From a virus, in the IMG/VR virus record IMGVR_UViG_3300032288_002261, positions 1 through 35,852 of that record: a stretch of 35,852 nt of DNA; one strand, written 5' to 3'. The notes beneath the pieces are model-generated. The model had not been told where the DNA came from. It worked only from the letters and a program-made list of their open reading frames with translations, and ran no database searches. Shown one piece after another: positions 2,566 through 35,591 of this stretch (position 1 is its first letter; the number at the start of each line of letters is the position of its first letter). The position numbers and the translations under genes are program-made.

Positions 2566-2771
2566 CAAAAGACGAAGCCCTAAAGCTGGCGCTTGAGGCG
2601 CTGACGAGGAATGATTATCTTGGCTACCAGACAAACCTCAATGTCATCGCCGCTATCAAGGAAGCGTTAGAAGAACCACAGACCACGCACAGCGAGGGTT
2701 GTTACAAGTGGCATCATCAATGCGCGATTGCGGAGATTGAGAGAGTGAAACTACGTGAGAAAAACACATGA
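2562..2771 (+). CDS. Small conserved phage protein (MTKDEALKLALEALE-type), 69 aa
   Basis: Phage genomes commonly carry small proteins that begin MTKDEALKLALEAL and continue with an AIKEAL helix, as this one does. The second half contains a short Cys and His-rich segment (Cys, His, His, Cys around residues 47-53) that could bind metal. The ATG at 2562 overlaps the upstream stop, and the stop overlaps the Rap1a-like start at 2768. Function is unknown. Confidence 0.7.
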   Translation: MTKDEALKLALEALTRNDYLGYQTNLNVIAAIKEALEEPQTTHSEGCYKWHHQCAIAEIERVKLREKNT

Positions 2772-3094
2772 AACTCATAGCGGTTGCATTGTTTGTTTTC
2801 TGTTCATCGGTTAATGCGGCGTCGTTTTATACGGGCAATGACTTGCTACGCTTCATGCAATCGGGGGTCGAAATTAACCGCGTGATAGCCTTATCTTATG
2901 TGATGGGCGCGGTTGATATGGGTAATAAGGTGCATTTTTGCCCGTCTACGCAGGTCACAGGTGGTCAGGTACAAGATATCGTCAAGCAGTACTTGGAGCA
3001 GAACCCGAGTATCCGGCATGAAGTTGCGGATATTATTTTAATAGGTTTGTTTAAACAACTCTGGCCCTGCCCTGCTCGCGGAACCGCAATGTGA
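2768..3094 (+). CDS. Secreted Rap1a/Tai-family immunity-like protein
   Basis: The 108-residue product starts with a typical signal peptide: Lys2, a hydrophobic core to residue 12, and a likely cleavage after VNA at about residue 17. The mature part matches the Rap1a/Tai fold. It has GNDLL, then a helix with YVMGAVD, Cys58 in a FCP segment, a Gln-rich helix leading to VKQYLEQNP, and Cys101 in WPCP. The two cysteines could form the family's disulphide. Rap1a and Tai proteins sit in the periplasm and neutralise type VI secretion peptidoglycan amidases. In a phage this may shield the infected cell, or modulate its own lysis or superinfection, which is inference. It is coupled on both sides (ATGA at 2768, GTGA at 3091). 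Confidence 0.8.
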   Translation: MKLIAVALFVFCSSVNAASFYTGNDLLRFMQSGVEINRVIALSYVMGAVDMGNKVHFCPSTQVTGGQVQDIVKQYLEQNPSIRHEVADIILIGLFKQLWPCPARGTAM

Positions 3095-25279: not shown

Positions 25280-25672
25280 TTATCCCCTAAGTTGTTCATC
25301 AATATCACGTTCTTCATAATCCACGCGATTTTTAACGCCAATCCGCAGTTTTATTGCTCCATTTTGCACTTCCAGGCCCATAGATCGGGTCATTCTCGGC
25401 TTTGGTTGCCGCCGATACTCCAAAAACTTGGTTCTATCTTTATTTTGCATTATGGCTACCTCGCCATCGCGGAAATGCTCATACGCCCTGCTCACCCGGC
25501 GTTGCACCCTCTCGCTTAATGGATAAACGCCACGAATAAATACATCCAGCAAATGCTCCTTGCTCATTCCCGCCAATTCCGCAAACAATTCCTGGGATAT
25601 CCCCCGATTTTTGTCCTCAAGGAACTTTTTGATAATCCTGAGTAATTCAATACGGGATATGACTTCTTTCAT
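25280..25672 (-). CDS. Putative HTH protein near terminase (130 aa)
   Basis: The start at 25672 gives an ATGA overlap with the glycosyltransferase stop. A GTG three codons upstream is the alternative. The N-terminal 65 residues look like a lambda-repressor-type helix-turn-helix (ISQELFAELAGMSKEHLLDVF, then VQRRVSRAYEHF). The remainder is basic and beta-rich. In this position it could be a small terminase-like DNA-recognition protein or a regulator of the late arm. Neither role is proven. Confidence 0.55.
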   Translation of the reverse strand: MKEVISRIELLRIIKKFLEDKNRGISQELFAELAGMSKEHLLDVFIRGVYPLSERVQRRVSRAYEHFRDGEVAIMQNKDRTKFLEYRRQPKPRMTRSMGLEVQNGAIKLRIGVKNRVDYEERDIDEQLRG

Positions 25673-26400
25673 TTGTTCCACATGAAACCATCGGGATAGC
25701 GTTGTTTCATTACCGCATTCCCGCGTTCAAAAAATTCCCTACCAACGGAATTGGGATTGCCGCCCAACCTGAAGCAGTTGGTATGCAACCCGCTGCCAGC
25801 AAAATGGGGGTTATTCTGTTTCAGGAATTTGTAAGCAAGTCGGTCAGCCCCATAGCCCATATAGTTGTAAGCATTTGCCGCATTGCAATAAACCTGTGTT
25901 TTTGCAGCTATTGAGCCGGTTTCTGCAAATCCTTCTCCGCCATCCCAAATCGGATGCTCACCCAAAGATTCACAATTGTCGTCAAACAGGAAGTTTCCTT
26001 CCTTGTCATAAATGCTTCTAAGGGAATATGCCCAATCAAGATCGTCTTTAACCATGAGATTAACAAGGGATTCAACATGGTTAGGCTTGAACCAATCATC
26101 GTCAGCGGTCATTAGCAGGATATCTTCGGTAATGAAATGCGGAGCCGCAGCAAATAGCTTCTGCCCCCCGCTGCCGCCAGTCGGCGATTTCATGGATACT
26201 TTCTTGGGCCAGTAGGCAACATCCCTGTTTGGACCGCGATACCTGTCTACCATAGCCTGATAATCCTTATAACTGACAATGCCATCAGTCAAAAGGTAAT
26301 GATGTACCGGATAGGTTTGGGCATTGATAGAGGCAACAGACTGAGAAAGTTCTGGCCTGTTTGCGGTAATCGTAACCACTGCCACGGTTGGATTGGTCAT
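25669..26400 (-). CDS. GT-A glycosyltransferase (family 2-like)
   Basis: The 243-residue protein has a GT-A start (AVVTITANRPELSQSVASIN), a TDGIVSYKDYQ segment, and a DXD-type metal site in LLMTADDDWF at about residues 97-104. A GYGADRLAYKFL segment lies near the acceptor side. It would transfer a sugar from a nucleotide donor. The gene sits inside the packaging module, between large terminase and portal, where such a gene is unexpected. It overlaps the terminase stop by four bases. Target and donor are unknown. Confidence 0.75.
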   Translation of the reverse strand: MTNPTVAVVTITANRPELSQSVASINAQTYPVHHYLLTDGIVSYKDYQAMVDRYRGPNRDVAYWPKKVSMKSPTGGSGGQKLFAAAPHFITEDILLMTADDDWFKPNHVESLVNLMVKDDLDWAYSLRSIYDKEGNFLFDDNCESLGEHPIWDGGEGFAETGSIAAKTQVYCNAANAYNYMGYGADRLAYKFLKQNNPHFAGSGLHTNCFRLGGNPNSVGREFFERGNAVMKQRYPDGFMWNK

Positions 26401-28160
26401 TGGAAGCCTATTGCTTTCAGGTAAGAACTGACCTTCTTTTGTGCAATATCATTTACTGCACCATTTTCTGAATTGGCTTCCTGCTTACGAGATAGATCGC
26501 GGGTAATGCGTTGCTGGATAAGTCTTGGTTGTAACTGTTCAGCGTAGGCTGCACAAGCAAGGGCGCTGGCAATAACCCTGTCATCTTTGTTTCTCCCGGA
26601 AGCCTGGATCGTCCCCGCATCCCTCACAATGGTTTTCATTTCCTCCAAGGTATCTTCGCTATAAATATCCATCATGCCGCGCTCAAAGTAATCTTTCATG
26701 TAAGACAGCATCCGTTCCTTGGTGGCGGCATTGGTCATCCAGCCGATGCTATTGGATGGACCATTCATATTGTCATTTCTGCGCCAGATATAGTTCTGCA
26801 TATGAGATAGAACGTCCATCAAATCAGAACCCATCTTGTTATTCATGGCGATAGCCTGACGTTTCAGGTTACGCAATTCATTGATTACAGCCTGTCCCGG
26901 ACCATTAATCTCAAGATTCAGGGTGGAATTTTTGTATGCACCGGCAAGGTGGGAGATTGCCCATGCAAACTGGTAGGTGTTCATCTCCGAGGTAGCAAAT
27001 TCGCATACTTGCTCCAAACCGTCAGCATAGGCTCTGTAGACCTGTATGCAAAACCTGTCTGCCCAATCAGACGAGCCATAGGCCGGATCAGCTCCTATGA
27101 CGTAATAAGCGGTATCTATGGGTTCTTCCCAAACCTTCAAGGTTGCCAGTTTTTCGGTGGATTTCAGGCATTGGGTATCATGGAAATTTGCCCCCATCGA
27201 ATAGCGGTAATAATCACATGACAGCTTTTTGGCAATCTTCATGGCATCGGTACATCTGGCAGATGAAAAGAAGGATGAGCCGGTCATTACAAAAGCGTAA
27301 TCTTCCGTAGGTGGAAACTCCTGCATCATCAGGGATTCATCTTTAATCCCCTCAAACAGTTTCCAGCGCCACCAAGCCATTTGTCGAGAATTAATCTCTA
27401 CGTTATAGAGTTTCTTGATATCCCGCGTCCATTCCTTTTCTTCATTGGTCAGTTTCCCATCCCAATAAACCTTATACACATCACTATTGCCATCAACCGA
27501 GTAATACTCATTTCGCCACCAGCCACAAAAGATAGCCCTCTGAGTCCTTGCTCTCTTAGCGGTTACATACATATCGTGGAACATATTGAACCCGCGAGCC
27601 GTACTCTCAAAGATATACATACGGTTGGGATTGGTTTCAGCCAAAGACGCAAGCAGGGAGGCCAATCCTTCCTCATCACCCCATGAAGATGTTTCCGTAC
27701 CATGCAGGTACGTAATCGCCTTACCCCTTCCCAAACCGCCTTTAGCCCGTATCCCCGCCACCTGGTAAAACAACCTCGACCTATTCTTCAACGACATATG
27801 GTTACGGTTATGCGCCACCAGAGGAATGCGGTATTCCTTGGGCAAACTCTCCATGTACATCCCCAAAGTAGACCGGAACATATCCCGGTTCTCCTCCGTA
27901 TCCGTAGTCAATGTCGCCTGCAACCCCGGATGCGTAAAAGTCCAGTACAAATCCAAAGCCAGCGATATCGTCGTAATCCCCAATTGCCTACCCTTGAGAA
28001 TTACAAAGAAATGAATATCCTCTGCCAATCCCTTTGCAAACTCATCCATCACATAAGTCTGCGTTCCCAAAGGCTTATCCAGCTTCTTTAATCCCTCCTC
28101 CTTTGTCTCAATCTGCAACTGAGAACAAAACTGGTAAAACTGCGGCAGGTTAAATTTCAT
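26397..28160 (-). CDS. terL: Terminase large subunit
   Basis: The 587-residue ATPase-nuclease pumps DNA into the prohead. The N-terminal ATPase has a Walker A-like KGRQLGITT at residues 56-64. A Walker B-like stretch is followed by Glu156 (ITYLHGTETSSW). The C-terminal RNase H-like nuclease shows Asp358 in IGADPAYG, Glu418 in LNLEING, and Asp526/Asp527 in NKDDRVIA. The Walker A variant (K/R-x-R-Q-x-G-x-T) is common in phage terminases. The AGGGGAT ribosome-binding sequence supports the ATG at 28160. No clear small terminase is adjacent. Confidence 0.95.
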   Translation of the reverse strand: MKFNLPQFYQFCSQLQIETKEEGLKKLDKPLGTQTYVMDEFAKGLAEDIHFFVILKGRQLGITTISLALDLYWTFTHPGLQATLTTDTEENRDMFRSTLGMYMESLPKEYRIPLVAHNRNHMSLKNRSRLFYQVAGIRAKGGLGRGKAITYLHGTETSSWGDEEGLASLLASLAETNPNRMYIFESTARGFNMFHDMYVTAKRARTQRAIFCGWWRNEYYSVDGNSDVYKVYWDGKLTNEEKEWTRDIKKLYNVEINSRQMAWWRWKLFEGIKDESLMMQEFPPTEDYAFVMTGSSFFSSARCTDAMKIAKKLSCDYYRYSMGANFHDTQCLKSTEKLATLKVWEEPIDTAYYVIGADPAYGSSDWADRFCIQVYRAYADGLEQVCEFATSEMNTYQFAWAISHLAGAYKNSTLNLEINGPGQAVINELRNLKRQAIAMNNKMGSDLMDVLSHMQNYIWRRNDNMNGPSNSIGWMTNAATKERMLSYMKDYFERGMMDIYSEDTLEEMKTIVRDAGTIQASGRNKDDRVIASALACAAYAEQLQPRLIQQRITRDLSRKQEANSENGAVNDIAQKKVSSYLKAIGFQ

Positions 28161-28389
28161 ATCCCCTCATCTTCAACATAACCTTCCTCAACTCCCCAAC
28201 ATCACCCCTACCCGCATTACGCCTCGCCTGCAACGCATCCCGAATCTTCTTGTCCCCCTTCAACGTCCTCAACAAATACCTCGCCTCACACTCCATCCTC
28301 CAATCGGGACACTCATTACATACCACCCTGCCATCCATCAACTCCACCGGCCTCTCACTAATCCCCTCACACCCTAAGCAGCCCTCCAT
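28150..28389 (-). CDS. Small Cys-rich (zinc-binding) protein upstream of terminase (79 aa)
   Basis: The product has Cys4 and Cys7 (CLGC), Cys24 and Cys27 (CNEC), and Cys34, a pattern suited to one zinc site. A helical segment EARYLLRTLKG and a basic C terminus follow. It overlaps terL and the upstream gene. Proteins of this type sit at this position in related phages, and I cannot exclude that it helps DNA recognition in packaging. Confidence 0.65.
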   Translation of the reverse strand: MEGCLGCEGISERPVELMDGRVVCNECPDWRMECEARYLLRTLKGDKKIRDALQARRNAGRGDVGELRKVMLKMRGYEI

Positions 28390-28625
28390 ATCCTCACCCC
28401 ATCATCTACCCGCCTTGCAACAAACTTCTTCCCCAACCGTTCCCCTTCCCGTTTATTCTTCGTACACATCTGGCTCATCAAAGACTTGCTTCCACCATTC
28501 ACCAAAAAACTATCACCCACTTCCATCTTTTCATACGGATAACTATTCTTAACCTTTCTCCCACCATTACCCATCGGCATTTCAACAGACTTCTCAACAG
28601 CAATCATAGTATCCATTTCCATCAT
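28374..28625 (-). CDS. Small conserved phage protein (YPYEKMEVGDSF type, 83 aa), first gene of the late arm
   Basis: A GGAGGGATGA ribosome-binding sequence precedes tandem ATG codons at 28625 and 28622. The second half has the recurrent phage pattern YPYEKMEVGDSFLV, then GKKFVARRVDDGVRIWR, in which a small beta domain follows an EVGDSF turn. The function is unknown to me. It is the first gene of the leftward arm, so it is read directly from the control region. Confidence 0.7.
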   Translation of the reverse strand: MMEMDTMIAVEKSVEMPMGNGGRKVKNSYPYEKMEVGDSFLVNGGSKSLMSQMCTKNKREGERLGKKFVARRVDDGVRIWRAA

Positions 28626-28783
28626 TCATCCCTCCATTCATAATTAACATTCACACAGAATACACGATTTTCTTTTGCTGGGAAATAAACCCTGTTTTTT
28701 TTGGGGGGGAAAACGGAGAAGTGCCTACGCACATGACACCCCCGATCCCCATTCATGTCGCCGATTCGATGCCGAGCCGATCG

Positions 28784-28812
28784 ATGCCCAGTCCATGCCC
28801 AGCCCATGCCCG
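28784..28812. repeat. Short tandem repeat, 11-bp units
   Basis: Two full units (ATGCCCAGTCC, ATGCCCAGCCC) and a partial third unit lie in the GC-rich half of the control region. Related GATGCC copies lie just upstream. Purpose unknown. Confidence 0.6.
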
Positions 28813-29011
28813 ATTAATCAATGGCGAGCCTGTAACACGGTCCTGGCAGTATCGGTAACTGCCCCATTGCGCCCCGGCCCCATGTAAAAATCCCCCTACT
28901 AGTAGAATGGAGATAGTGGGTGAACCTTTCGCCAACCTTTCAAATTATGTTAGCGCATACTTATTTACTAATACACAAACCATACATATATATATATGTA
29001 ATATCTACACG

Positions 29012-29022
29012 TATATACGTAT
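29012..29022. repeat. TATATACGTAT repeat, copy 1
   Basis: The 11-base sequence TATATACGTAT recurs exactly at 29187-29197. Here it is part of a 12-bp palindrome (ACGTATATACGT, 29009-29020) and overlaps the -10-like element of a candidate leftward promoter. Confidence 0.6.
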
Positions 29023-29046
29023 ACCGTCACGATGTCGAATTCTCAA
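29018..29046 (-). promoter_or_regulatory. Candidate leftward sigma70-like promoter
   Basis: Read on the minus strand, TTGAGA (29046-29041), a 17-base spacer and TATACG (29023-29018) give a moderate match to sigma70 elements. It points towards the late arm with a leader of about 390 bases before the first gene at 28625. The evidence is sequence match and position only. Confidence 0.3.
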
Positions 29047-29050
29047 CACG

Positions 29051-29106
29051 TGTCAAATTATCATCAGTTTTGTTGAATATTTGACATAACTGTCAATTTA
29101 TCAACA
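29051..29106. repeat. Three alternating 16-bp iteron-like repeats with 20-bp period
   Basis: Three 16-bp units lie at 29051-29066 (+), 29086-29071 (-) and 29091-29106 (+): TGTCAAATTATCATCA, TGTCAAATATTCAACA and TGTCAATTTATCAACA. They agree at 13 to 14 of 16 positions in pairwise comparison. Their left ends are exactly 20 bp apart, so they fall on the same face of the helix in alternating orientation. The last two form a 36-bp dyad (29071-29106). The arrangement fits an initiator or repressor binding array. A TTATCAACA inside unit 3 is one base from a DnaA box. Confidence 0.65.
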
Positions 29107-29163
29107 GTTAATGCACAGCGTATGCCAATAAATTATCAATGAAAACAATGCTATATTAATTAA

Positions 29164-29192
29164 TTGATTATGGCACGATGATTGCATATATA
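29164..29192 (+). promoter_or_regulatory. Candidate rightward sigma70-like promoter for the early arm
   Basis: TTGATT at 29164-29169, a 17-base spacer and TATATA at 29187-29192 lie upstream of the first early gene. The predicted start would be near 29199, giving a 35-base leader with the AGGGG ribosome-binding sequence at 29221. The -10 overlaps the second TATATACGTAT copy (29187-29197). Confidence 0.45.
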
Positions 29193-29233
29193 CGTATGCA
29201 GTATCAATTTATCAATTTATAGGGGTAAAATTT

Positions 29234-29899
29234 ATGTCGGAAAATAGAATTGTTCAAATAATCCCAAAAAAAACAGCTTCAATAATTATCGGGGGTTTAA
29301 CTCAAACTTCCAAAATGCCATGCAAAAGTTACAGTTTACCGACTGTAGCCTGTCAAACAGGGTACCATATGGCAAAAATACCCGGTAGTGTGTGCGAAAG
29401 CTGCTATGCAAATAGGGGTTTTTATGCCATGTATCAGGCAACCATAGAACCAGCACAACACGCGCGCCTAGAATCGATCAACGATCCACTCTGGGTTAGT
29501 TCAATTGTCAGTTTAATAGGGCAGGATCAATATTTTCGCTGGCACGATTCGGGGGATATTCAAAGTTTGGAACACCTAGAGAAAATTATTGCGGTATGCA
29601 ATGCAACACCTAAAACACGCCATTGGTTGCCAACGCGAGAGTATGGAATTGTAAAAAATTACATTGCAAAGTATGGCAAACTCCCGGATAACCTGGTAAT
29701 TAGATTGTCGGCCATGTACCCCGATATTCCAGTTAAAATCCCAGCCAGTTTAATTGGGATTCCCGGCATTGCGGCTAGCAACGTACATACCGTAAATCCC
29801 ATTGGCACGGATTGTAATGCTAGCAAACAAAATGGGAAATGTTTAGATTGTCGGGCCTGTTGGAATCGCAATAAAACAGTATCGTACAAAATGCACTAA
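29234..29899 (+). CDS. GP88-family protein (mycobacteriophage gene product 88-like)
   Basis: The 221-residue product matches the GP88 family found in many phages. It has SKMPCKSYSLPTVACQTG at the start, then GSVCESCYANRGFY, a FRWHDSGDIQS core at about 101-111, HWLPTRE at 130-136, LVIRLSA and a C-terminal CLDCRACW. Nine cysteines are present (30, 40, 54, 57, 122, 194, 203, 206, 209). The clusters could bind zinc or an iron-sulphur centre. The biochemical role of the family is not known to me. It is the first gene of the rightward arm, stands alone with its own leader, and shares flanking sequences with the clamp gene downstream. Confidence 0.88.
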   Translation: MSENRIVQIIPKKTASIIIGGLTQTSKMPCKSYSLPTVACQTGYHMAKIPGSVCESCYANRGFYAMYQATIEPAQHARLESINDPLWVSSIVSLIGQDQYFRWHDSGDIQSLEHLEKIIAVCNATPKTRHWLPTREYGIVKNYIAKYGKLPDNLVIRLSAMYPDIPVKIPASLIGIPGIAASNVHTVNPIGTDCNASKQNGKCLDCRACWNRNKTVSYKMH

Positions 29900-30025: not shown

Positions 30026-30655
30026 ATGAAAGTTACTATTTATCGCAATGCATTAAAAGCCGCTAGTCGTTTCCAGGCTGTAAAAGATATTCGATTCTAT
30101 TTGAACGGGATTTTCATAGAATCTTCGCCCATAGAATCTCGCCTGGTGGCGACTGATGGCCATATTTTAATTGTCACAAAATGCGACGCAAAAGATGAAA
30201 ATGAAGGTATGTTTTCGGGAATTATCCCGTCTGACGTAGTAAAAACAATACTTTCCTGGAAAGCGCCAAAGTATGCAAAGGAATCGCTTATTGTGATATC
30301 GGGCGACGGTCCAGAGTATCGGGCCGAATGGCGCGGTAATGTCGCGCTGTTCAAGCTGGTGGACGGGAAGTTTCCCGATTACCGGCGCGTTATTCCCGAA
30401 AAAACGAATGGGGAATTGGCATTTTATGATCCAGACCTGCTGGTGCGCGTGAAACGTGCCAGTGAGGATCTAGGAAACAATAATGGCCAATTTTCTCTTA
30501 ATTACAATGGAAATAGTGGCGCATTGGCGCAAATAAATACCGAAACCATTGCGGTAATTATGCCAATGCGAACCGATATTAATATCTCAATTGATGCGAC
30601 ATGGGCCAGGGGCGCATTGGCTGGCATTGATACCGTAATCTCACTGGCGGCATAA
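30026..30655 (+). CDS. Two-domain beta sliding clamp (DnaN-like)
   Basis: The product carries hallmarks of the bacterial DNA polymerase III beta clamp: RLVATDGHIL at 39-48, VDGKFPDYRRVIP at 112-124, and IAVIMPMR at 175-182. The last corresponds to the far C terminus of bacterial DnaN. At 209 residues it is clearly shorter than the usual about 366 and fits only the second and third clamp domains. A ring would then need three subunits, as in PCNA, which is inference. No phage polymerase is visible, so it may load with, or compete for, the host polymerase. A TTATAGGGG leader precedes the ATG, like that of the GP88 gene. Confidence 0.8.
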   Translation: MKVTIYRNALKAASRFQAVKDIRFYLNGIFIESSPIESRLVATDGHILIVTKCDAKDENEGMFSGIIPSDVVKTILSWKAPKYAKESLIVISGDGPEYRAEWRGNVALFKLVDGKFPDYRRVIPEKTNGELAFYDPDLLVRVKRASEDLGNNNGQFSLNYNGNSGALAQINTETIAVIMPMRTDINISIDATWARGALAGIDTVISLAA

Positions 30656-30674
30656 TGCTACCTGCTAACAGTTT
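30653..30674 (+). repeat. Post-stop direct repeat, copy 2
   Basis: This second copy overlaps the TAA stop of the clamp gene and ends TACCTGCTAACAGTTT. Here its CTGCTAACAGT part is also the left arm of a hairpin. Confidence 0.75.
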
Positions 30675-30711
30675 AGATAATAGACTGTTGGCGGATTAGC
30701 ACTAGCTAATC
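30662..30711 (+). terminator. Tandem stem-loops after the clamp gene
   Basis: The first stem pairs 30662-30672 (CTGCTAACAGT) with 30684-30694 (ACTGTTGGCGG), 11 pairs including G-T wobbles. The second pairs GATTAGC (30694-30700) with GCTAATC (30705-30711) around a four-base loop. No strong T run follows. They may protect the 3' end, attenuate transcription, or bind a protein. Confidence 0.4.
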
Positions 30712-30735
30712 ACAATTTATCAATGAAAGGTATAT

Positions 30736-31020
30736 ATGAAAACCTATAAAGCAAGAAACGGAAATATTCAATATAAACAAAGCATTGATACGCTTATGGA
30801 AGGTACTGAAAATAGTATCGGGTATTGCCTGGCGTGCGGCGAAGAAAATGAAAATATTGAACCGGATGCGCGTAAGTACAATTGCCAATGCTGCAATGCG
30901 CCCAAAGTGTACGGATGCGAGGAATTAATGCTGATGGGATTGTATTATTCAACTCAGGGGGTGCCTGATAACCGCACCAGCCACGATTATGGCAACCCTC
31001 GCACCCAGGTTTCAGAATAG
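30736..31020 (+). CDS. Phage zinc-ribbon protein (94 aa)
   Basis: The product has the recurrent phage zinc-ribbon pattern GYCLACGEE, then IEPDARKYNCQCC, then a GCEELMLMG segment. Cys31 and Cys34, with Cys50 and Cys53 as the second pair, would hold zinc. Proteins of this type usually stand alone in early regions, and their partner is unknown. The GAAAGG leader supports the ATG at 30736. The gene stands in its own intergenic setting, like its two upstream neighbours. Confidence 0.8.
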   Translation: MKTYKARNGNIQYKQSIDTLMEGTENSIGYCLACGEENENIEPDARKYNCQCCNAPKVYGCEELMLMGLYYSTQGVPDNRTSHDYGNPRTQVSE

Positions 31021-31040
31021 CAGTTTCAGGGATAAAAACA

Positions 31041-31226
31041 ATGGATAACGCCCCGAAAAGCAAACGCCTATATCCCTCTTATACCCTGCCAGAGCTTTAT
31101 CTGGCAGTTAAGCAAACGCACCTGTCCAATGCCGAAAGGGATAGGCTTAACCTAGCAATTGCCCAACGTGACAGGTTATCAGCGGATTATGTACCTGTCG
31201 CTGTAACGCCCCAGGTTGCCCCATAG
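31041..31226 (+). CDS. Small helical phage protein (61 aa)
   Basis: CAGGGATAAA upstream supports the ATG at 31041. The product has a basic start, a YTLPELYLAVKQTHLSNAERDRLNLAIAQR helix pair and a Pro/Val-rich end. It may be a DNA-binding or adaptor peptide, but no family is identified. Its stop is followed at once by hairpins. Confidence 0.6.
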   Translation: MDNAPKSKRLYPSYTLPELYLAVKQTHLSNAERDRLNLAIAQRDRLSADYVPVAVTPQVAP

Positions 31227-31246
31227 GCGATTTTTCTAATAATCGC
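31227..31246 (+). promoter_or_regulatory. Small hairpin after the 31041-31226 gene
   Basis: GCGATT (31227-31232) pairs with AATCGC (31241-31246) around an eight-base T-rich loop, directly after the TAG stop codon. It lies just upstream of the larger hairpin at 31253. Confidence 0.4.
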
Positions 31247-31252
31247 ACTCAG

Positions 31253-31284
31253 GCATAGGGGCGAGCATGAAAATGCCCCTATGC
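31253..31284 (+). terminator. Bulged hairpin with GAAA tetraloop, terminator-like
   Basis: GCATAGGG (31253-31260) pairs with CCCTATGC (31277-31284). A GCGA bulge (31261-31264) on the 5' side is followed by an inner stem GCAT (31265-31268) / ATGC (31273-31276) closed by a GAAA loop. Alternatively a simple 10-bp stem GCATAGGGGC / GCCCCTATGC forms. A short T run follows about 11 bases later (31295-31299), too far for a textbook terminator. Confidence 0.5.
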
Positions 31285-31318
31285 GCCTAAAATCGCTTTT
31301 TATAAGCATTGGATAATT

Positions 31319-31399
31319 ATGGAACCATCCCACCAACAAATAGCTGCTTTGTGGCTGGCCCTGGCAATCTTGGGGTTAGTTCTGATTTTAACAAATTAA
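31319..31399 (+). CDS. Micro-membrane protein (26 aa)
   Basis: An ATG at 31319 opens a 26-codon frame encoding a short polar start (MEPSHQQIAA) and one hydrophobic span (LWLALAILGLVLIL). GGAT lies a few bases upstream. It resembles other very short phage membrane proteins. The evidence is the composition and the next similar frame. Confidence 0.45.
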   Translation: MEPSHQQIAALWLALAILGLVLILTN

Positions 31400-31436
31400 T
31401 TTATCAACTATTTATTTATCCGTCATAAGGCGCATT

Positions 31437-31508
31437 ATGGATAAGGATTTTGCTGTATTTATCGGAACCATTTTGATTTTCCTGGCAATGGTGGCGGGTG
31501 GATATTGA
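31437..31508 (+). CDS. Micro-membrane protein (23 aa)
   Basis: AAGGCG precedes the ATG at 31437. The 23-residue product is almost wholly one membrane span (a FAVFIGTILIFLAMVAGGY segment). It ends shortly before the promoter-like element of the structured RNA candidate. Confidence 0.45.
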   Translation: MDKDFAVFIGTILIFLAMVAGGY

Positions 31509-31551
31509 CGCCATCCGTCATCCGGGCGCGAGGCCCAATTGGAAAAAGGCA

Positions 31552-31581
31552 TTGACAATTCAAAAAGAAAGGGGTTAGGAT
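31552..31581 (+). promoter_or_regulatory. Candidate sigma70 promoter for the structured RNA
   Basis: A perfect TTGACA -35 (31552-31557), an 18-base spacer and TAGGAT -10 (31576-31581, four of six consensus bases) predict a start near 31588. That position is a G and is exactly the first base of the 14-bp outer stem of the candidate RNA. Confidence 0.5.
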
Positions 31582-31587
31582 TCGCCT

Positions 31588-31900
31588 GTCCGAGAAAAAG
31601 ATCGGATCGTGCCGGGAAGCACGTCGAAGGTACAAGAACCCTTAACAGGGGTAGGCAACCGTCCTTCGCGGCTTCCCACCGCCGATCCCCTGTTAAGGGT
31701 TTTTCTTTTTCTCAGACACAGTACAACGGGGGCATAACCCACCCCTCGCAACGGTTTGACGACCAATGCGGATAAACGCAAAGCACCGGCCAGGAATGGC
31801 TGCCCTTTCGCAAGATGGATAGGGAACGGTGGTGCAGCAGAGCAACGCTGCATTGAGCGCGATAAACGAGAGTCAGATGTACCCCCGCTTATAACGGGTG
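31588..31900 (+). ncRNA. Candidate large structured non-coding RNA
   Basis: This stretch of about 310 bases has no convincing gene and is full of helices. Outer stem A pairs 31588-31601 with 31704-31717 (13 of 14 pairs). Stem B is perfect over 15 bp (31637-31651 with 31687-31701). A side hairpin has CGTGC (31608-31612) / GCACG (31619-31623), and a GCGG/CCGC hairpin lies in the loop of B. The 3' half has a long-range helix CGGGGG (31727-31732) / CCCCCG (31882-31887). It encloses TGCG-GATAAA-CGCA (31767-31780), a GGAA-tetraloop stem CGGCCA/TGGCTG (31787-31802), CACCG/CGGTG (31784-31788 with 31827-31831) and TGCAGC/GCTGCA (31833-31838 with 31847-31852). A promoter-like element ends seven bases upstream. 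The exact 3' end is unknown. Confidence 0.65.
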
Positions 31901-31955
31901 AGGTTTAATTGTGCCGACGCAGTTATGATTAATTAATTTATCAGGAGATATGAAA

Positions 31956-32198
31956 ATGAATTACTGCAAAGATTGTATTCACCATCAAGTAAAAGAAAAG
32001 CACCCTCGATTGGGGCAATGTACCCGTCGCATTCGTTATCACCCTGTTGATGGGTCCATGTACTTTTATGATGCCTGGGACGAACGTATGGCCCTCGGAA
32101 CTTGTGGCCCAGATGGGATTCACTTCGTACCAATCCCGCACGTTTCACATTCAGACATTGCTGCCGAGCAGATGCAAGCGAAGCAGGCAGAAGCATGA
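31956..32198 (+). CDS. Small Cys-containing phage protein (80 aa)
   Basis: I start at the ATG at 31956, seven bases after AGGAGA. The ATG at 31950 is too close to it. The product begins MNYCKDCIHH with further cysteines in GQCTRR and LGTCGPDG, a likely zinc site of four cysteines. Such CKDC-type proteins recur in phages. The stop overlaps the next start in ATGA. Function is unknown. Confidence 0.7.
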   Translation: MNYCKDCIHHQVKEKHPRLGQCTRRIRYHPVDGSMYFYDAWDERMALGTCGPDGIHFVPIPHVSHSDIAAEQMQAKQAEA

Positions 32199-32389
32199 AG
32201 TATCGAGACAACATGAGCGTAAAGGAATTAGCGAAATTCAAAAAAGAATTGCAAGCCCTAGAAGATGCATACTCCAGCGCATCTGAGCATGACGCGAAGA
32301 TGCAAGAACAGAACCCACTTCCAGAAGAATGGGAAAACCAAAGCGATTATGTCGGAATGGGTTGGATTGACAGTAGGGGGCGACCATGA
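32195..32389 (+). CDS. Small phage protein (64 aa)
   Basis: The start overlaps the upstream stop (ATGA at 32195). The product has a helical N-terminal half (VKELAKFKKELQALEDAYSS) and an acidic, Gln-rich second half ending in a GWIDSRGRP segment. It is coupled to the next gene in the same way (32386). No family is recognised. Confidence 0.6.
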   Translation: MKYRDNMSVKELAKFKKELQALEDAYSSASEHDAKMQEQNPLPEEWENQSDYVGMGWIDSRGRP

Positions 32390-32682
32390 ATCATATTGAC
32401 CAAGAGACTTCAACAACAATTCATGGTGAATTACTGGTTTGGAAACGCGGAGATGGTGGTCAATGGGTTTGGAATACCGGCGACGAAGGTGCTGTTCGCT
32501 TTTTTGAAAAAAACGGTATCTGGAAAGGTCAACGTCCACGCGCTCTTGAACCATTGGCAATTTCCAAAAGTCTGCAAGATTGCGTTTTACAGGTCAAAAA
32601 GCATTACATAATAAAACGCGCTCAAGCCCACGAACGGATGGCGGCAAGGTTGCGCCGAGAAGCAGAAGGCATCATAAAATAA
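32386..32682 (+). CDS. Phage protein of unknown function (98 aa)
   Basis: ATGA coupling at 32386 fixes the start. The first 50 residues look like a small beta domain (LLVWKRGDGGQWVWNTG, then FFEKNGIW). The last 35 residues are a basic helix (KRAQAHERMAARLRREAEG). It precedes the recombination genes. Function is unknown. Confidence 0.6.
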   Translation: MNHIDQETSTTIHGELLVWKRGDGGQWVWNTGDEGAVRFFEKNGIWKGQRPRALEPLAISKSLQDCVLQVKKHYIIKRAQAHERMAARLRREAEGIIK

Positions 32683-32706
32683 ATTATTAATATATTGGAG
32701 AAAGAA

Positions 32707-32913
32707 ATGAAATTAGACTTGTATGTGAATGACGCAAAAATTGAACAGGGCATTACAGGAAAAAACCGCCCTAAAATCAATCTCACGGTTGATGTAAGCA
32801 TTGAGGATATTTATGGTTTTGCAGAGCAGTTTGCCAAGCTCAAAAAAAGTGAGTTTGAAAACCTGAAAGAATTTATCAACGCGCTCGAAAATGAGGAAAT
32901 TAATCATGGCTGA
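32707..32913 (+). CDS. Small acidic phage protein before the exonuclease (68 aa)
   Basis: The ATG at 32707 lies six bases after GGAG. A TTG at 32695 would destroy this spacing. The product is a small alpha/beta protein with a LTVDVSIEDIYGFAEQFAKL segment and an acidic end. Its stop lies within the exonuclease gene start, so the two are coupled. No family is recognised. Confidence 0.6.
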   Translation: MKLDLYVNDAKIEQGITGKNRPKINLTVDVSIEDIYGFAEQFAKLKKSEFENLKEFINALENEEINHG

Positions 32914-33802
32914 TTTCAGTCCAGAGAATCGCAATTCTGCAATATGGTCCGGGGATGCCCGTCGCATTGCTAATCACCGCATTGGCGAAGTATGGCTCGA
33001 GAAAACAGGCCAGAAACCCATCGACGAAACCATTGGGGATAAGGAGAACGTCCAATGGGGACTGCGCTTGCAAGAGCCGATTGCTAGAGCAGTAGGCGAC
33101 AGGCTCAATATCCGCTTGAAGGAACTGGACATTGAAGGAACGCACCATAAGCACTCATGGATGCGGTCACACTTCGATTATGTGAGCGAGGACGGGAAAA
33201 CCCTGTACGAAATCAAGAATTATTCGGCATTCAGCAGGGACCATTATGGCGATGATGGTTCTATCCTGATTCCCGATGGCGACCTTGCCCAATGTATCCA
33301 TGAAGCAGCAGTGTTCAACGTGGATATGGTCAACCTTTGTGTGCTGTTCGGAGGACAGGAGTTATGTATCTATCCTATCCACGTAGAACAGGCCCATAAG
33401 GATGTTCTGATCCAGCAGGAAGCCGCGCTATGGGCTTGCATCCAGACACGCACCCCCCCGGAGTCAGACCATCCAGACGACCTTCGCGCAATCATGCCCA
33501 AGGATGACGGTCGAAGCATAGAGGCTACCGGGTCAATCGAGCAGGACGCTATCCAGCTTCGCAAGGTCAAGGATGCCATAGCAGCGTTGGAAAAGGATGA
33601 AGTAACCCTGTCCACGCGCATCATGCGACACATGGGACAGGCGGCAGTACTTGTCGGCAGTCAGAACCGGACGCTGGTCACATGGAAAACCGCTAAAGCA
33701 TCAACAAAATTTGACGCAAAAGCAATGGAACAGGCATTGCCCGACACTTATAAAATGTATGTCAAGGAGGTTCCTGGCAGCAGAAGGTTTCTGGTGAAAT
33801 GA
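32906..33802 (+). CDS. YqaJ-type phage exonuclease (recombination nuclease)
   Basis: The 298-residue protein has the N-terminal YqaJ recombinase-nuclease domain. RIANHRIGEVWLEKTG is followed by Glu57 in GLRLQEPIARAV, Asp91 in MRSHFDYV, and Glu102 and Lys104 in YEIKNY, which together form the PD-(D/E)XK centre. Such enzymes resect double-stranded ends to give single strands for an annealing protein, and a RecT-like gene follows one gene later. I start at the ATG at 32906 with GAGG upstream. The in-frame ATG at 32891 would give 303 residues. The C-terminal 90 residues are helical and Lys-rich. Confidence 0.88.
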   Translation: MADFSPENRNSAIWSGDARRIANHRIGEVWLEKTGQKPIDETIGDKENVQWGLRLQEPIARAVGDRLNIRLKELDIEGTHHKHSWMRSHFDYVSEDGKTLYEIKNYSAFSRDHYGDDGSILIPDGDLAQCIHEAAVFNVDMVNLCVLFGGQELCIYPIHVEQAHKDVLIQQEAALWACIQTRTPPESDHPDDLRAIMPKDDGRSIEATGSIEQDAIQLRKVKDAIAALEKDEVTLSTRIMRHMGQAAVLVGSQNRTLVTWKTAKASTKFDAKAMEQALPDTYKMYVKEVPGSRRFLVK

Positions 33803-34026
33803 TGATAAAAGACACATATCAGGCGACAGAAGATTCAGCAGTACATAAACTGTACGAATTGTGCAGGGAAGTTACCGATAATGTTGTCGCTGAACTGGAA
33901 CGGCTAGGAAAAACCGACCCGCAGATAGAACTGCCGATTATTTTCAGCGATGATATGGTTCTGACAATATCCAGAGGACCGGATACTAAAAAAGCAATTG
34001 CTGATTTCAAATCCAAAGCCAATTAA
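33799..34026 (+). CDS. Small protein between exonuclease and RecT genes (75 aa)
   Basis: The start overlaps the exonuclease stop (ATGA at 33799), followed by a second ATG. The product is mainly helical with a central VHKLYELCREVTDNVVAELERL helix and a short beta part. It might be a partner of the recombination pair because of its place, but this is inference. Confidence 0.6.
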   Translation: MMIKDTYQATEDSAVHKLYELCREVTDNVVAELERLGKTDPQIELPIIFSDDMVLTISRGPDTKKAIADFKSKAN

Positions 34027-34050
34027 TCAATTAACCTATAGGATAATAAA

Positions 34051-34956
34051 ATGAATGAATTAGTGCCAATGTCGGATATCGAGAAGATGGGCAGCGCCAT
34101 TGCCAAATCCGGGTTGTTCGGCATGAAAACACCGGAACAGGCCATTGCATTGATGCTGATTGCCCAGGCAGAGGGGATGCACCCCGCTATTGCAGCTCGT
34201 GATTATCACGTTATACAAGGGAGGCCAGCACTCAAGGCAGATGCAATGCTTGCCCGGTTTCAATCCGCTGGTGGAAAGGTCCAATGGGAGGTTTATACCG
34301 ATGAAGAAGTCAAGGCTACATTCAGCCACCCTGCCGGCGGGACAATTACGCTTAGTTGGACACTCGCTCAAGCGAAGAAGATCGGGCTTGCAACCAAGGA
34401 TAGCTGGAAGAACTATCCCCGCGCCATGCTTCGCGCCCGTGTCATTAGCGAAGGCATACGAACGGTCTATCCTGGCTGCGTCGTTGGCGTTTACACGCCT
34501 GAAGAAGTCGGAGACTTTGAACCGCGACCTGCAAACACAGTTAGAAATATGGGAAACGTGGAAGTCGTCGATGATGCTGCTCCAAATTCCCCCATACTCA
34601 GCACTAACCCAATAGCTGACATGGTGGATGACATACCACCAGCACCGCTAGAACAATGGACCCTGCAAATACCCGGAAAGAAAGAGCAGGTATATCACTC
34701 CAAGACAGAATGGATAGATTCCATCCTTGCGCTGGTTGACAAGGTACTGGCATCCAAAGCGTTGTCAGTTGCAGAGCAGGATGAAAAAGTGGAATCGTTG
34801 AAAAAGTCCAATATTGCAACCTTCCAGCGTATCGGGTTGGTCGAGTCGGCAGAGGTTTATAAGCAGATCAAGGCCCGTTTCCCAAGGGAGGCGACAGATT
34901 CCGAAAAAAAGCTGGTAGCGGAGTTCGCAGCGGAATTCGAAGCCAAAACGATTTAG
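34051..34956 (+). CDS. recT: RecT-family single-strand annealing protein
   Basis: The 301-residue protein carries the RecT pattern: MSDIEKMGSAIAKSGLFGMKTPEQA, then an EGMHPAIAARDYHVIQGRPALKADAMLARFQSAGG-type core. A W-x-LAQA segment and PRAMLRARVISEGIRTVYPG follow in the C-terminal part of the domain. RecT proteins anneal complementary single strands during phage replication and repair. The upstream YqaJ nuclease completes the pair. The last 100 residues are variable and helical. Confidence 0.88.
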   Translation: MNELVPMSDIEKMGSAIAKSGLFGMKTPEQAIALMLIAQAEGMHPAIAARDYHVIQGRPALKADAMLARFQSAGGKVQWEVYTDEEVKATFSHPAGGTITLSWTLAQAKKIGLATKDSWKNYPRAMLRARVISEGIRTVYPGCVVGVYTPEEVGDFEPRPANTVRNMGNVEVVDDAAPNSPILSTNPIADMVDDIPPAPLEQWTLQIPGKKEQVYHSKTEWIDSILALVDKVLASKALSVAEQDEKVESLKKSNIATFQRIGLVESAEVYKQIKARFPREATDSEKKLVAEFAAEFEAKTI

Positions 34957-35129
34957 TGCTAGACCTGTTGCGGCGCGGTCCATTAACTCCAATCGAGGCG
35001 CTGCACAAGGTCAATTGCATGAGGCTTGCATCCAGAATCGACGAACTCAAAAAGATAGGACACAACATAACTACTGAAATCGTGGTCAACGGGAAGGCGC
35101 GTTATGCGAGATATCATTTAACAGGATGA
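34956..35129 (+). CDS. Winged-helix DNA-binding protein (HTH_39-like, 57 aa, GTG start)
   Basis: The start is a GTG at 34956 that overlaps the RecT stop (TAGTG). The product has the common phage winged-helix pattern RRGPLTPIEALHKVNCMRLASRIDELKKIGHNI, then a beta wing (TEIVVNGKARYARYHL). Such proteins probably bind DNA as small regulators or recombination accessories. The gene is short, but its sequence pattern is clear. Confidence 0.8.
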   Translation: MLDLLRRGPLTPIEALHKVNCMRLASRIDELKKIGHNITTEIVVNGKARYARYHLTG

Positions 35130-35341
35130 CAAACATGGAATATCCAGACTACAAAGCCAGAAGGGTTATCGAGGGTAAAGGCGTCCTATTCACCAACCTT
35201 GATAAGAAAGATGAAGGCTCACCAGATATGAAAGGAGAACTGCTCTACAAGGGAGAACTGCTGAAAATCGGTGGGTGGATAGTGGAAACTGAATATGGAA
35301 TGCTTATTTCAATCGGTATAGATAAACGAAGGAGTTATTAA
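35126..35341 (+). CDS. Small beta-rich protein, tandem paralogue of 35343-35591 (71 aa)
   Basis: ATGA overlap at 35126 fixes the start. The core pattern, EGKGVLFTN then a PDMKGELLYKGELLKIGGW segment, parallels EGKGVLWTN then PDLKGAIMLNGVEIRLSGW in the next gene. Small phage proteins with a G(K)GxLFxN....PDxxG.....G....I.GW pattern are common near recombination genes and look like small OB-like or beta-barrel proteins. This copy lacks the acidic C-terminal tip of its neighbour. Confidence 0.65.
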   Translation: MTNMEYPDYKARRVIEGKGVLFTNLDKKDEGSPDMKGELLYKGELLKIGGWIVETEYGMLISIGIDKRRSY

Positions 35342-35342
35342 G

Positions 35343-35591
35343 ATGGCGTGGACACCGGAAGAAGGTAAAGGCGTACTTTGGACTAATGACAAAAAAGGCA
35401 ATCCCAAAGCACCAGACCTTAAAGGGGCAATCATGCTCAATGGAGTAGAAATAAGATTGTCAGGATGGTCACGACAGGCCAGCACCGGCCCATGCGTTAG
35501 CCTTTTGTATAACGCACCCTATAACAATGGCAATCAGCAAGCGTATCCTCGAGAGGTTGGCGGGAAAGACGATCAAGACATTCCGTTCTAA
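35343..35591 (+). CDS. SSB-like small protein with a DDQDIPF C-terminal tip (82 aa)
   Basis: The core parallels the preceding gene. The protein ends in GGKDDQDIPF, very close to the MDFDDDIPF tip of bacterial SSB proteins. In SSB this tip recruits host partners such as RecG, PriA and the polymerase III chi subunit. With its place next to RecT and YqaJ, a single-strand DNA-binding role is reasonable, but the core is too short (about 60 residues) to prove an SSB-type OB fold. The AAGGAGTTATTAAG leader supports the ATG at 35343. Confidence 0.6.
   Translation: MAWTPEEGKGVLWTNDKKGNPKAPDLKGAIMLNGVEIRLSGWSRQASTGPCVSLLYNAPYNNGNQQAYPREVGGKDDQDIPF

Follow-up and report, generated by a model that had tools for sequence, protein, structure and literature searches.

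Organization of the control region

The window, which is the whole 35,852-base contig of an IMG/VR virus record, is arranged as two divergent arms around a control region (Table 1). The + strand arm carries early genes and, provided that the contig is circular, presumably extends over the segment between base 36 and about 4.1 kb. The leftward arm runs from 28625 through small ORFs and the terminase large subunit (TerL) gene into the structural genes. An earlier note on this DNA had placed a control element where the arms diverge, and this was right: an array of repeated boxes lies between the leftward TerL arm and the rightward early arm. Other features of the layout include a small protein (30026-30655) with the central domain of the DNA polymerase III clamp (PF02767), for which the best PHROG names a RusA-like protein; a Rap1a immunity-like protein (2768-3094; PF18602, E value of 2e-14) within the early arm; and a T8G8 tract (28692-28711), possibly a cos/pac site or a leader structure, that separates the left arm from the AT-rich region and has T/G counterparts in most of the relatives examined.

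Table 1. Boxes, predicted promoter, and flanking genes of the control region
Feature	Position	Strand	Remarks
Start of leftward late arm	26397..28625	-	Small ORFs 28374-28625 and 28150-28389; terminase large subunit 26397-28160
Box 0 TGTCGAATTCTCAACA	29033..29048	+	UAS-like dyad TGT-N10-ACA; missed by the earlier note; L295 counterpart TGTCGAAATCTCGACA
Box 1 TGTCAAATTATCATCA	29051..29066	+	L295 counterpart TGTTGAATAATCGTCA, promoter gap 104 in both
Box 2 TGTTGAATATTTGACA	29071..29086	+	Dyad; L295 counterpart TGTTGAATATCTGACA from alignment
Box 3 TGTCAATTTATCAACA	29091..29106	+	Promoter proximal, 64 to TGGCA; L295 TGTCAATATATCAACA and MW202825 TGTCGTAATATCGTCA, gap 64 in both
Box 3-promoter linker	29107..29170	+	75% identity to L295; one IHF consensus match inside
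Predicted sigma-54 (-24/-12) promoter TGGCACGATGATTGCA	29171..29186	+	Only zero-mismatch match in the contig; start inferred near 29197
GP88 family protein	29234..29899	+	First gene downstream; PF17338, E value of 3e-21
Rest of rightward early arm	30026..35591	+	Clamp-like protein, RecE-like exonuclease, RecT, HTH_39 protein, SSB-like proteins

The array consists of four 16-bp quasi-palindromes, for which the dyad TGWYRA-N4-TYRWCA was the best common description. This pattern had exactly four zero-mismatch matches in the window, all of them in the array, against an expectation of 0.14, and four matches were reached in 0 of 100 shuffles. The earlier note had reported three copies, read in +, -, + orientation on a 20-bp period with 4-bp spacers. 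These three (Boxes 1 to 3) were located as claimed and are not random, with 40 of 48 pairwise identities compared with 32 in the best of 1,000 dinucleotide shuffles of 28811-29233, but the count was one short, as a fourth box (Box 0) starts 18 bp upstream of Box 1. The alternating orientation is present as well but carries little weight because each box is itself a quasi-palindrome, with 10, 6, 12, and 10 of its 16 positions being self-complementary in Boxes 0 to 3, respectively. Similarly, the abutting palindrome ACACGTGT that had been pointed out at 29046-29053 does exist but results from the meeting of Boxes 0 and 1, where a CG joins the last three letters of the former (ACA) to the first three of the latter (TGT); in L295, a close relative of the phage, ACACTTGT stands at this junction.

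A predicted sigma-54 promoter at fixed distance from the boxes

Downstream of the array, the pattern TGGCACGN4TTGCW was matched at 16 of 16 positions, including the GG at -24 and the GC at -12; matches with up to one mismatch were expected 0.41 times in the contig. The predicted sigma-54 promoter lies 64 bp 3' of Box 3, is aimed at the rightward early genes, and is 48 bases away from the start codon of GP88. The gaps from Boxes 0 to 3 to TGGCA are 122, 104, 84, and 64, and the box centers lie approximately 156, 138, 118, and 98 bp upstream of the inferred transcription start, spaced near whole numbers of helical turns. A helical preference in the steps between neighboring boxes gave a P value of 0.0004 but was given no weight, since the search patterns preset part of the spacings. 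With gaps of 64 to 122, the four boxes have the arrangement by which an upstream activating sequence (UAS) is recognized, namely, several inverted-repeat boxes some 80 to 250 bp upstream. The linker contains an IHF consensus match on the - strand (29157-29169), which may be due to chance; the whole genome is rich in this consensus (8 matches versus 2.7 expected). Sigma-70-like sites occurred at chance level in the control region (5 versus 3.8 expected), with none on the + strand from 28645 to the first gene and a weak one on the - strand overlapping Boxes 2 and 3.

The relative L295 (TerL, 93% over 138 residues; RecT, 87%; RecE, 83%) was found by the box/promoter pattern and not by the TerL listing, and was the third carrier of the boxes. 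The earlier note had proposed looking for conserved spacing in homologous control regions, and L295 provided it: all four boxes and the promoter aligned, with gaps of 122, 104, 84, and 64 as in the contig, although the box at gap 84 departed from the dyad pattern at one position and was identified from the alignment. Identity between the two was concentrated in the half-sites of the boxes (43/48, 90%) compared with the spacers between boxes (3/10, 30%; Fisher P = 0.0002), and amounted to 13/16 in the box centers, 48/64 in the linker, 10/12 at the fixed sigma-54 positions, 1/4 in the sigma-54 N4, and 37/74 downstream. No GP88 match was present in L295 and the gene after the promoter differs; thus, the control cassette was kept while its first cargo changed. 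In MW202825, a relative with a complete circular genome, a homologous promoter, TGGCACACGTATTGCA, was present together with boxes of the same type, one of them at gap 64.

The remaining relatives differed in this region. Upstream regions of at least 1,300 bases were available for 59 TerL relatives (57 loci, MW202825, and MW202753), one source list being the best 80 matches; control regions beyond the stretches examined would be missed. Within that scope, MW202825 alone (1/59) had the box pair, and it alone had a sigma-54 match with up to one mismatch. MW202753 (TerL, 78%) had neither boxes nor the sigma-54 promoter. The system is therefore not essential to the phage family, as most relatives are without boxes and promoter. 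That relatives use sigma-70 instead was true for three of the five examined: L006, L048, and L162 had sites with 10 to 12 of 12 matches, L064 reached 9 of 12, and L008 had none. Some relatives carried repeats of other kinds. L181 has four TAACNGTTACTTA repeats where the contig has its array, and in L048 and L058 GTTTAAAC octamers are repeated several times in the control region and the adjacent gene, also directly upstream of GP88. In L162, the canonical bacterial parS 16-mer, TGTTTCACGTGAAACA, occurs in the control region (locus coordinates of approximately 4.6 to 4.9 kb) on the upstream side of a GP88 homologue; capture of the host ParB by this site is possible.

The same comparisons bear on the proposal of the earlier note that the array is a likely replication origin. 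In that case, the boxes would be iterons, or sites resembling DnaA boxes, recognized by an initiator of the phage or of the host. The surroundings are AT rich, the array is at the divergence point, and the cumulative GC skew has a turn near 29 kb, as the earlier note had predicted for an origin. However, the other turn is at about 4 kb, where the arms converge, so the skew follows gene direction and gives an origin no support. In the 700-bp region of the contig that was scanned, TTATCCACA boxes had no exact match and a single one-mismatch match, inside Box 3. This near-DnaA box (TTATCAACA, the right half of Box 3) reads ATATCAACA in L295, and its DnaA likeness is not kept. Exact or one-mismatch DnaA boxes had a density of 0.36 per kb in the control regions of relatives versus 0.32 elsewhere and clustered in L172 only, where six lie in the corresponding region. 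Moreover, the same divergence without the repeats was found in 57 of 57 TerL-relative loci with at least 1,300 bp upstream and in MW202753 (again with one source list limited to the best 80), a finding that the earlier note itself had named as refuting its proposal, and the same class of boxes occurs beside genes for sigma-54 activators (bacterial enhancer-binding proteins [bEBPs]) in bacteria. Taken together, an origin at the array is extremely unlikely. The L172 boxes, four of the TGTGGATAA type at 11-bp steps and two more, are approximately 960 to 1050 bp upstream of TerL and adjoin three palindromic ACCTTCGAAGGT boxes; judged by its sequence, this cluster is plausibly a DnaA-dependent origin in that relative.

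Boxes and sigma-54 sites in other viruses and in bacteria

In public virus contigs, the combination box-N{45,75}-sigma54 was present in 27 stretches, compared with 1 for a control with the promoter reversed. Many of the 27 are related; they form nine tblastx groups, and nine groups versus one corresponds to a P value of approximately 0.01. A version with two boxes and a sigma-54 site returned 14 stretches, among them L301, in which terminase genes lie on the far side of the array and no similarity to the contig was detectable. The box pair with a fixed 4-base spacer was found in three virus contigs, all with multicopy arrays and one of them L183, and the wider box pattern was found in 86 stretches. 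We then combined the loci from both virus patterns, the bacterial pair search described below, and the contig, counting homologues separately. At least three boxes (up to one mismatch, within 300 bp) were present in 55 loci, with TerL within 3 kb in 25, a GP88-like gene in 13, and both in 11; the corresponding numbers for the 45 two-box loci were 7, 7, and 1. Terminase and GP88-like genes were common neighbors of the clusters. Sigma-54 matches with up to two mismatches pointed outward from 9 of the 55 larger clusters and inward in none when 200 bp were searched (about 1 expected), and from 10 and 1, respectively, within 300 bp (1.6 expected). The two-box loci had 13/45 outward and 10/45 inward matches within 300 bp (2.8 expected), a near balance that is partly due to one group with divergent promoters. 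The other 46 of the 55 clusters had no outward match at this stringency within 200 bp, and thus the box class alone is no proof of a sigma-54 enhancer.

Many TGTCAA-N4-TTGACA clusters in TerL control regions indeed have no evident sigma-54 promoter (for example, L183, L224, and L202), the L183 array being upstream of terminase genes and divergent from rightward genes. Such clusters would fit operators of the lambda type, at which a phage repressor or Cro-like protein blocks divergent sigma-70 promoters, the sigma-54 match of the contig then being incidental. The lambda operators OR and OL are imperfect dyads in tandem, also where a control region is divergent. The contig boxes likewise are quasi-palindromes, with a better and a poorer half; they recur about every 20 bp in the intergenic region from which the arms diverge, with the weak - strand sigma-70-like site lying over Boxes 2 and 3. 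In contrast to lambda, the contig is without a known repressor and its array stands in a fixed relation to a sigma-54 promoter, with the gaps to a conserved -24/-12 element kept in L295 and MW202825. The chance-level number of sigma-70-like sites, the 27-to-1 association of boxes with sigma-54 sites, and the bEBP genes beside bacterial copies also argue against a repressor, and no shared HTH gene family was seen within 3 kb of the clusters among the largest neighbor groups inspected. We therefore regard lambda-like operators as unlikely in the contig, while a repressor-operator role is possible for related clusters without sigma-54 promoters. The term master operator, used in the earlier note, holds insofar as this is a control region, but the enhancer positions of the boxes suggest activation rather than repression. 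Dense TGTTAA-N4-TTAACA arrays of five to seven boxes, with no sigma-54 matches nearby, were observed in L182, L184, and L274.

When the box pair alone was searched in GTDB with one genome per species, 11 loci were obtained. A bEBP gene adjoins the pair in three of them (L276, L277, and L278, the first two being near identical), and no bEBP neighbor was detected at the remaining eight. In L278 (Lewinellaceae), the pair has a sigma-54 match on one side and, on the other, a divergently oriented gene whose product is a PAS-AAA+-Fis-HTH activator (Sigma54_activat, E value of 4e-60). In L276 and L277 (Clostridiaceae), it directly follows a gene for an AAA+ activator with a GAFTGA motif, which is PrdR-like in L276, and it precedes a sigma-54 candidate with three mismatches, TTGGCATAAAATATGCT, as well as prdC-like and prdA-like genes, named from our reading of the sequences.

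The boxes resemble several known activator sites. NifA UASs have the length TGT-N10-ACA, and GlrR/QseF sites read TGTC-N10-GACA, three of them at a sigma-54 promoter; the contig boxes share the TGTC/GACA half-sites of the latter, with a spacing of N8 instead of N10. In NtrC-controlled promoters of the glnA type, the -24/-12 element is likewise preceded by several sites in tandem at intervals of about 20 bp, but the box sequence is unlike that of the contig. A survey of clostridial sigma-54 regulons describes the UASs of 15 EBP groups, including PrdR, as TGT/ACA inverted repeats 10 to 12 bp apart, often several per operon and mostly 100 to 250 bp upstream; it predicts the prd genes to be under PrdR control and likens these UASs to NifA and FhlA sites (PMC6615313). 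The contig boxes share the TGT-N10-ACA spacing, which this survey gives in general terms for NifA and FhlA UASs (PMC6615313), whereas the inner half-site letters of those UASs differ from the TGWYRA of the contig. Similar to the contig, the PrdR-type locus L276 has TGT/ACA inverted repeats in two boxes 20 bp apart (TGTCAATAATTTAACA and TGTTAAATTATTGACA) upstream of a sigma-54 promoter (TTGGCAT type). The two differ in that L276 is a bacterial catabolic operon with its activator gene adjacent, while no activator was found in the phage, and in the gap from box to promoter, which is 184 in L276 versus 64 in the contig.

A host regulator, of the bEBP family or another, might instead use the same array mainly to repress or together with sigma-70, with NtrX as an example. 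The NtrX sites reported are CAA-N2-5-TTG (PMC9223101), and CAA-N4-TTG is contained in many boxes of the class, some clusters of which are free of sigma-54 sites. However, none of the four contig boxes has the exact CAA-N4-TTG core, their halves being CAA with TCA or TTG with TGA, and the array of the contig is followed, as far away as is usual for an enhancer, by an excellent predicted sigma-54 promoter. We consider this use of the array very improbable here.

A candidate enhancer for the early operon

A phage-encoded regulator of the array was not apparent. The protein encoded at 25280-25681 was absent from the first three box-bearing records found, and both it and the protein at 34956-35129, the two that the earlier note had suggested for gel shifts, are poor candidates for binding because relatives without the array also carry homologues. 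Array-free relatives also have homologues of the HTH_39 protein and, overall, of both HTH-like proteins in the contig. No bEBP ATPase domain scored above the cutoff in 23 phage records, which points to a host-encoded activator, and no Fis-type HTH was present in 6 phage records.

We therefore favor, with a probability of roughly 0.75, the reading that the four boxes are a multisite enhancer for a host sigma-54 activator driving the phage early operon, because the sole zero-mismatch sigma-54 site sits 64 bp from Box 3 and faces the early arm and because L295 and MW202825 keep this geometry and boxes elsewhere associate with sigma-54 promoters and bEBP genes. Dimers of a host bEBP would bind the tandem TGT-N10-ACA-type boxes, assemble into an ATPase ring, and contact, by looping, the RNA polymerase-sigma54 that is kept closed at the predicted promoter; ATP use by the ring would then open the complex and switch on the GP88/RecE/RecT arm. 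What the sequences show of this scheme are the boxes, the promoter match, the conserved geometry, and the association with sigma-54 promoters and bEBP genes elsewhere; the DNA-protein contacts, the activation and its timing, the presence of sigma-54 in the host, and the choice of bEBP are inferred. Consensus matches found by a program do not equal function.

Sigma-54 promoters are silent until an ATP-driven activator opens them, and that activator is often tied to the sensing of nitrogen, carbon, or stress. An early operon on such a promoter would run only, or differently, in hosts of a given physiological state, and the control region would be a cis-encoded sensor of host state with no need for a phage regulator. 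It would account as well for the entirely different arrays that related phages have at this position. In the open-access literature on sigma-54 with phage promoters, we found no description of such a phage control region; the effect of a prophage on a host bEBP (PMC9879122) is a separate matter.

Sigma-54 matches with NtrC-like sites upstream were found in three other GP88 phage lineages, selected as standouts in a scan of 81 GP88 loci, so they do not represent a rate. The gaps, similar to those of the contig, were 106/85/65 in L016, 105/84/53 in L051/L052, and 95/74/63/43 in L053, and all three had at least two NtrC-like sites in the 150 bp upstream, more than expected from simulated sequence, in which 0 to 0.15% of 2,000 runs reached as many. 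L050 has a sigma-54 match with no NtrC-like sites in its 150 bp upstream. It is an even bet that the arrangement is widespread among uncultured phages, with the early operon (GP88 and recombination genes), which faces away from the terminase arm, under host sigma-54 promoters and with interchangeable enhancer cassettes at fixed positions about 64, 84, and 104 bp upstream: TGT-N10-ACA boxes in the contig lineage, NtrC-like sites in others, and plain sigma-70 promoters in close relatives. If so, host nutritional or stress regulators would gate the phage program, and lineages would swap the sensor. Finally, five sigma-54-like sites, distributed over both strands, are crowded into about 110 bp of L053 (4990-5100).
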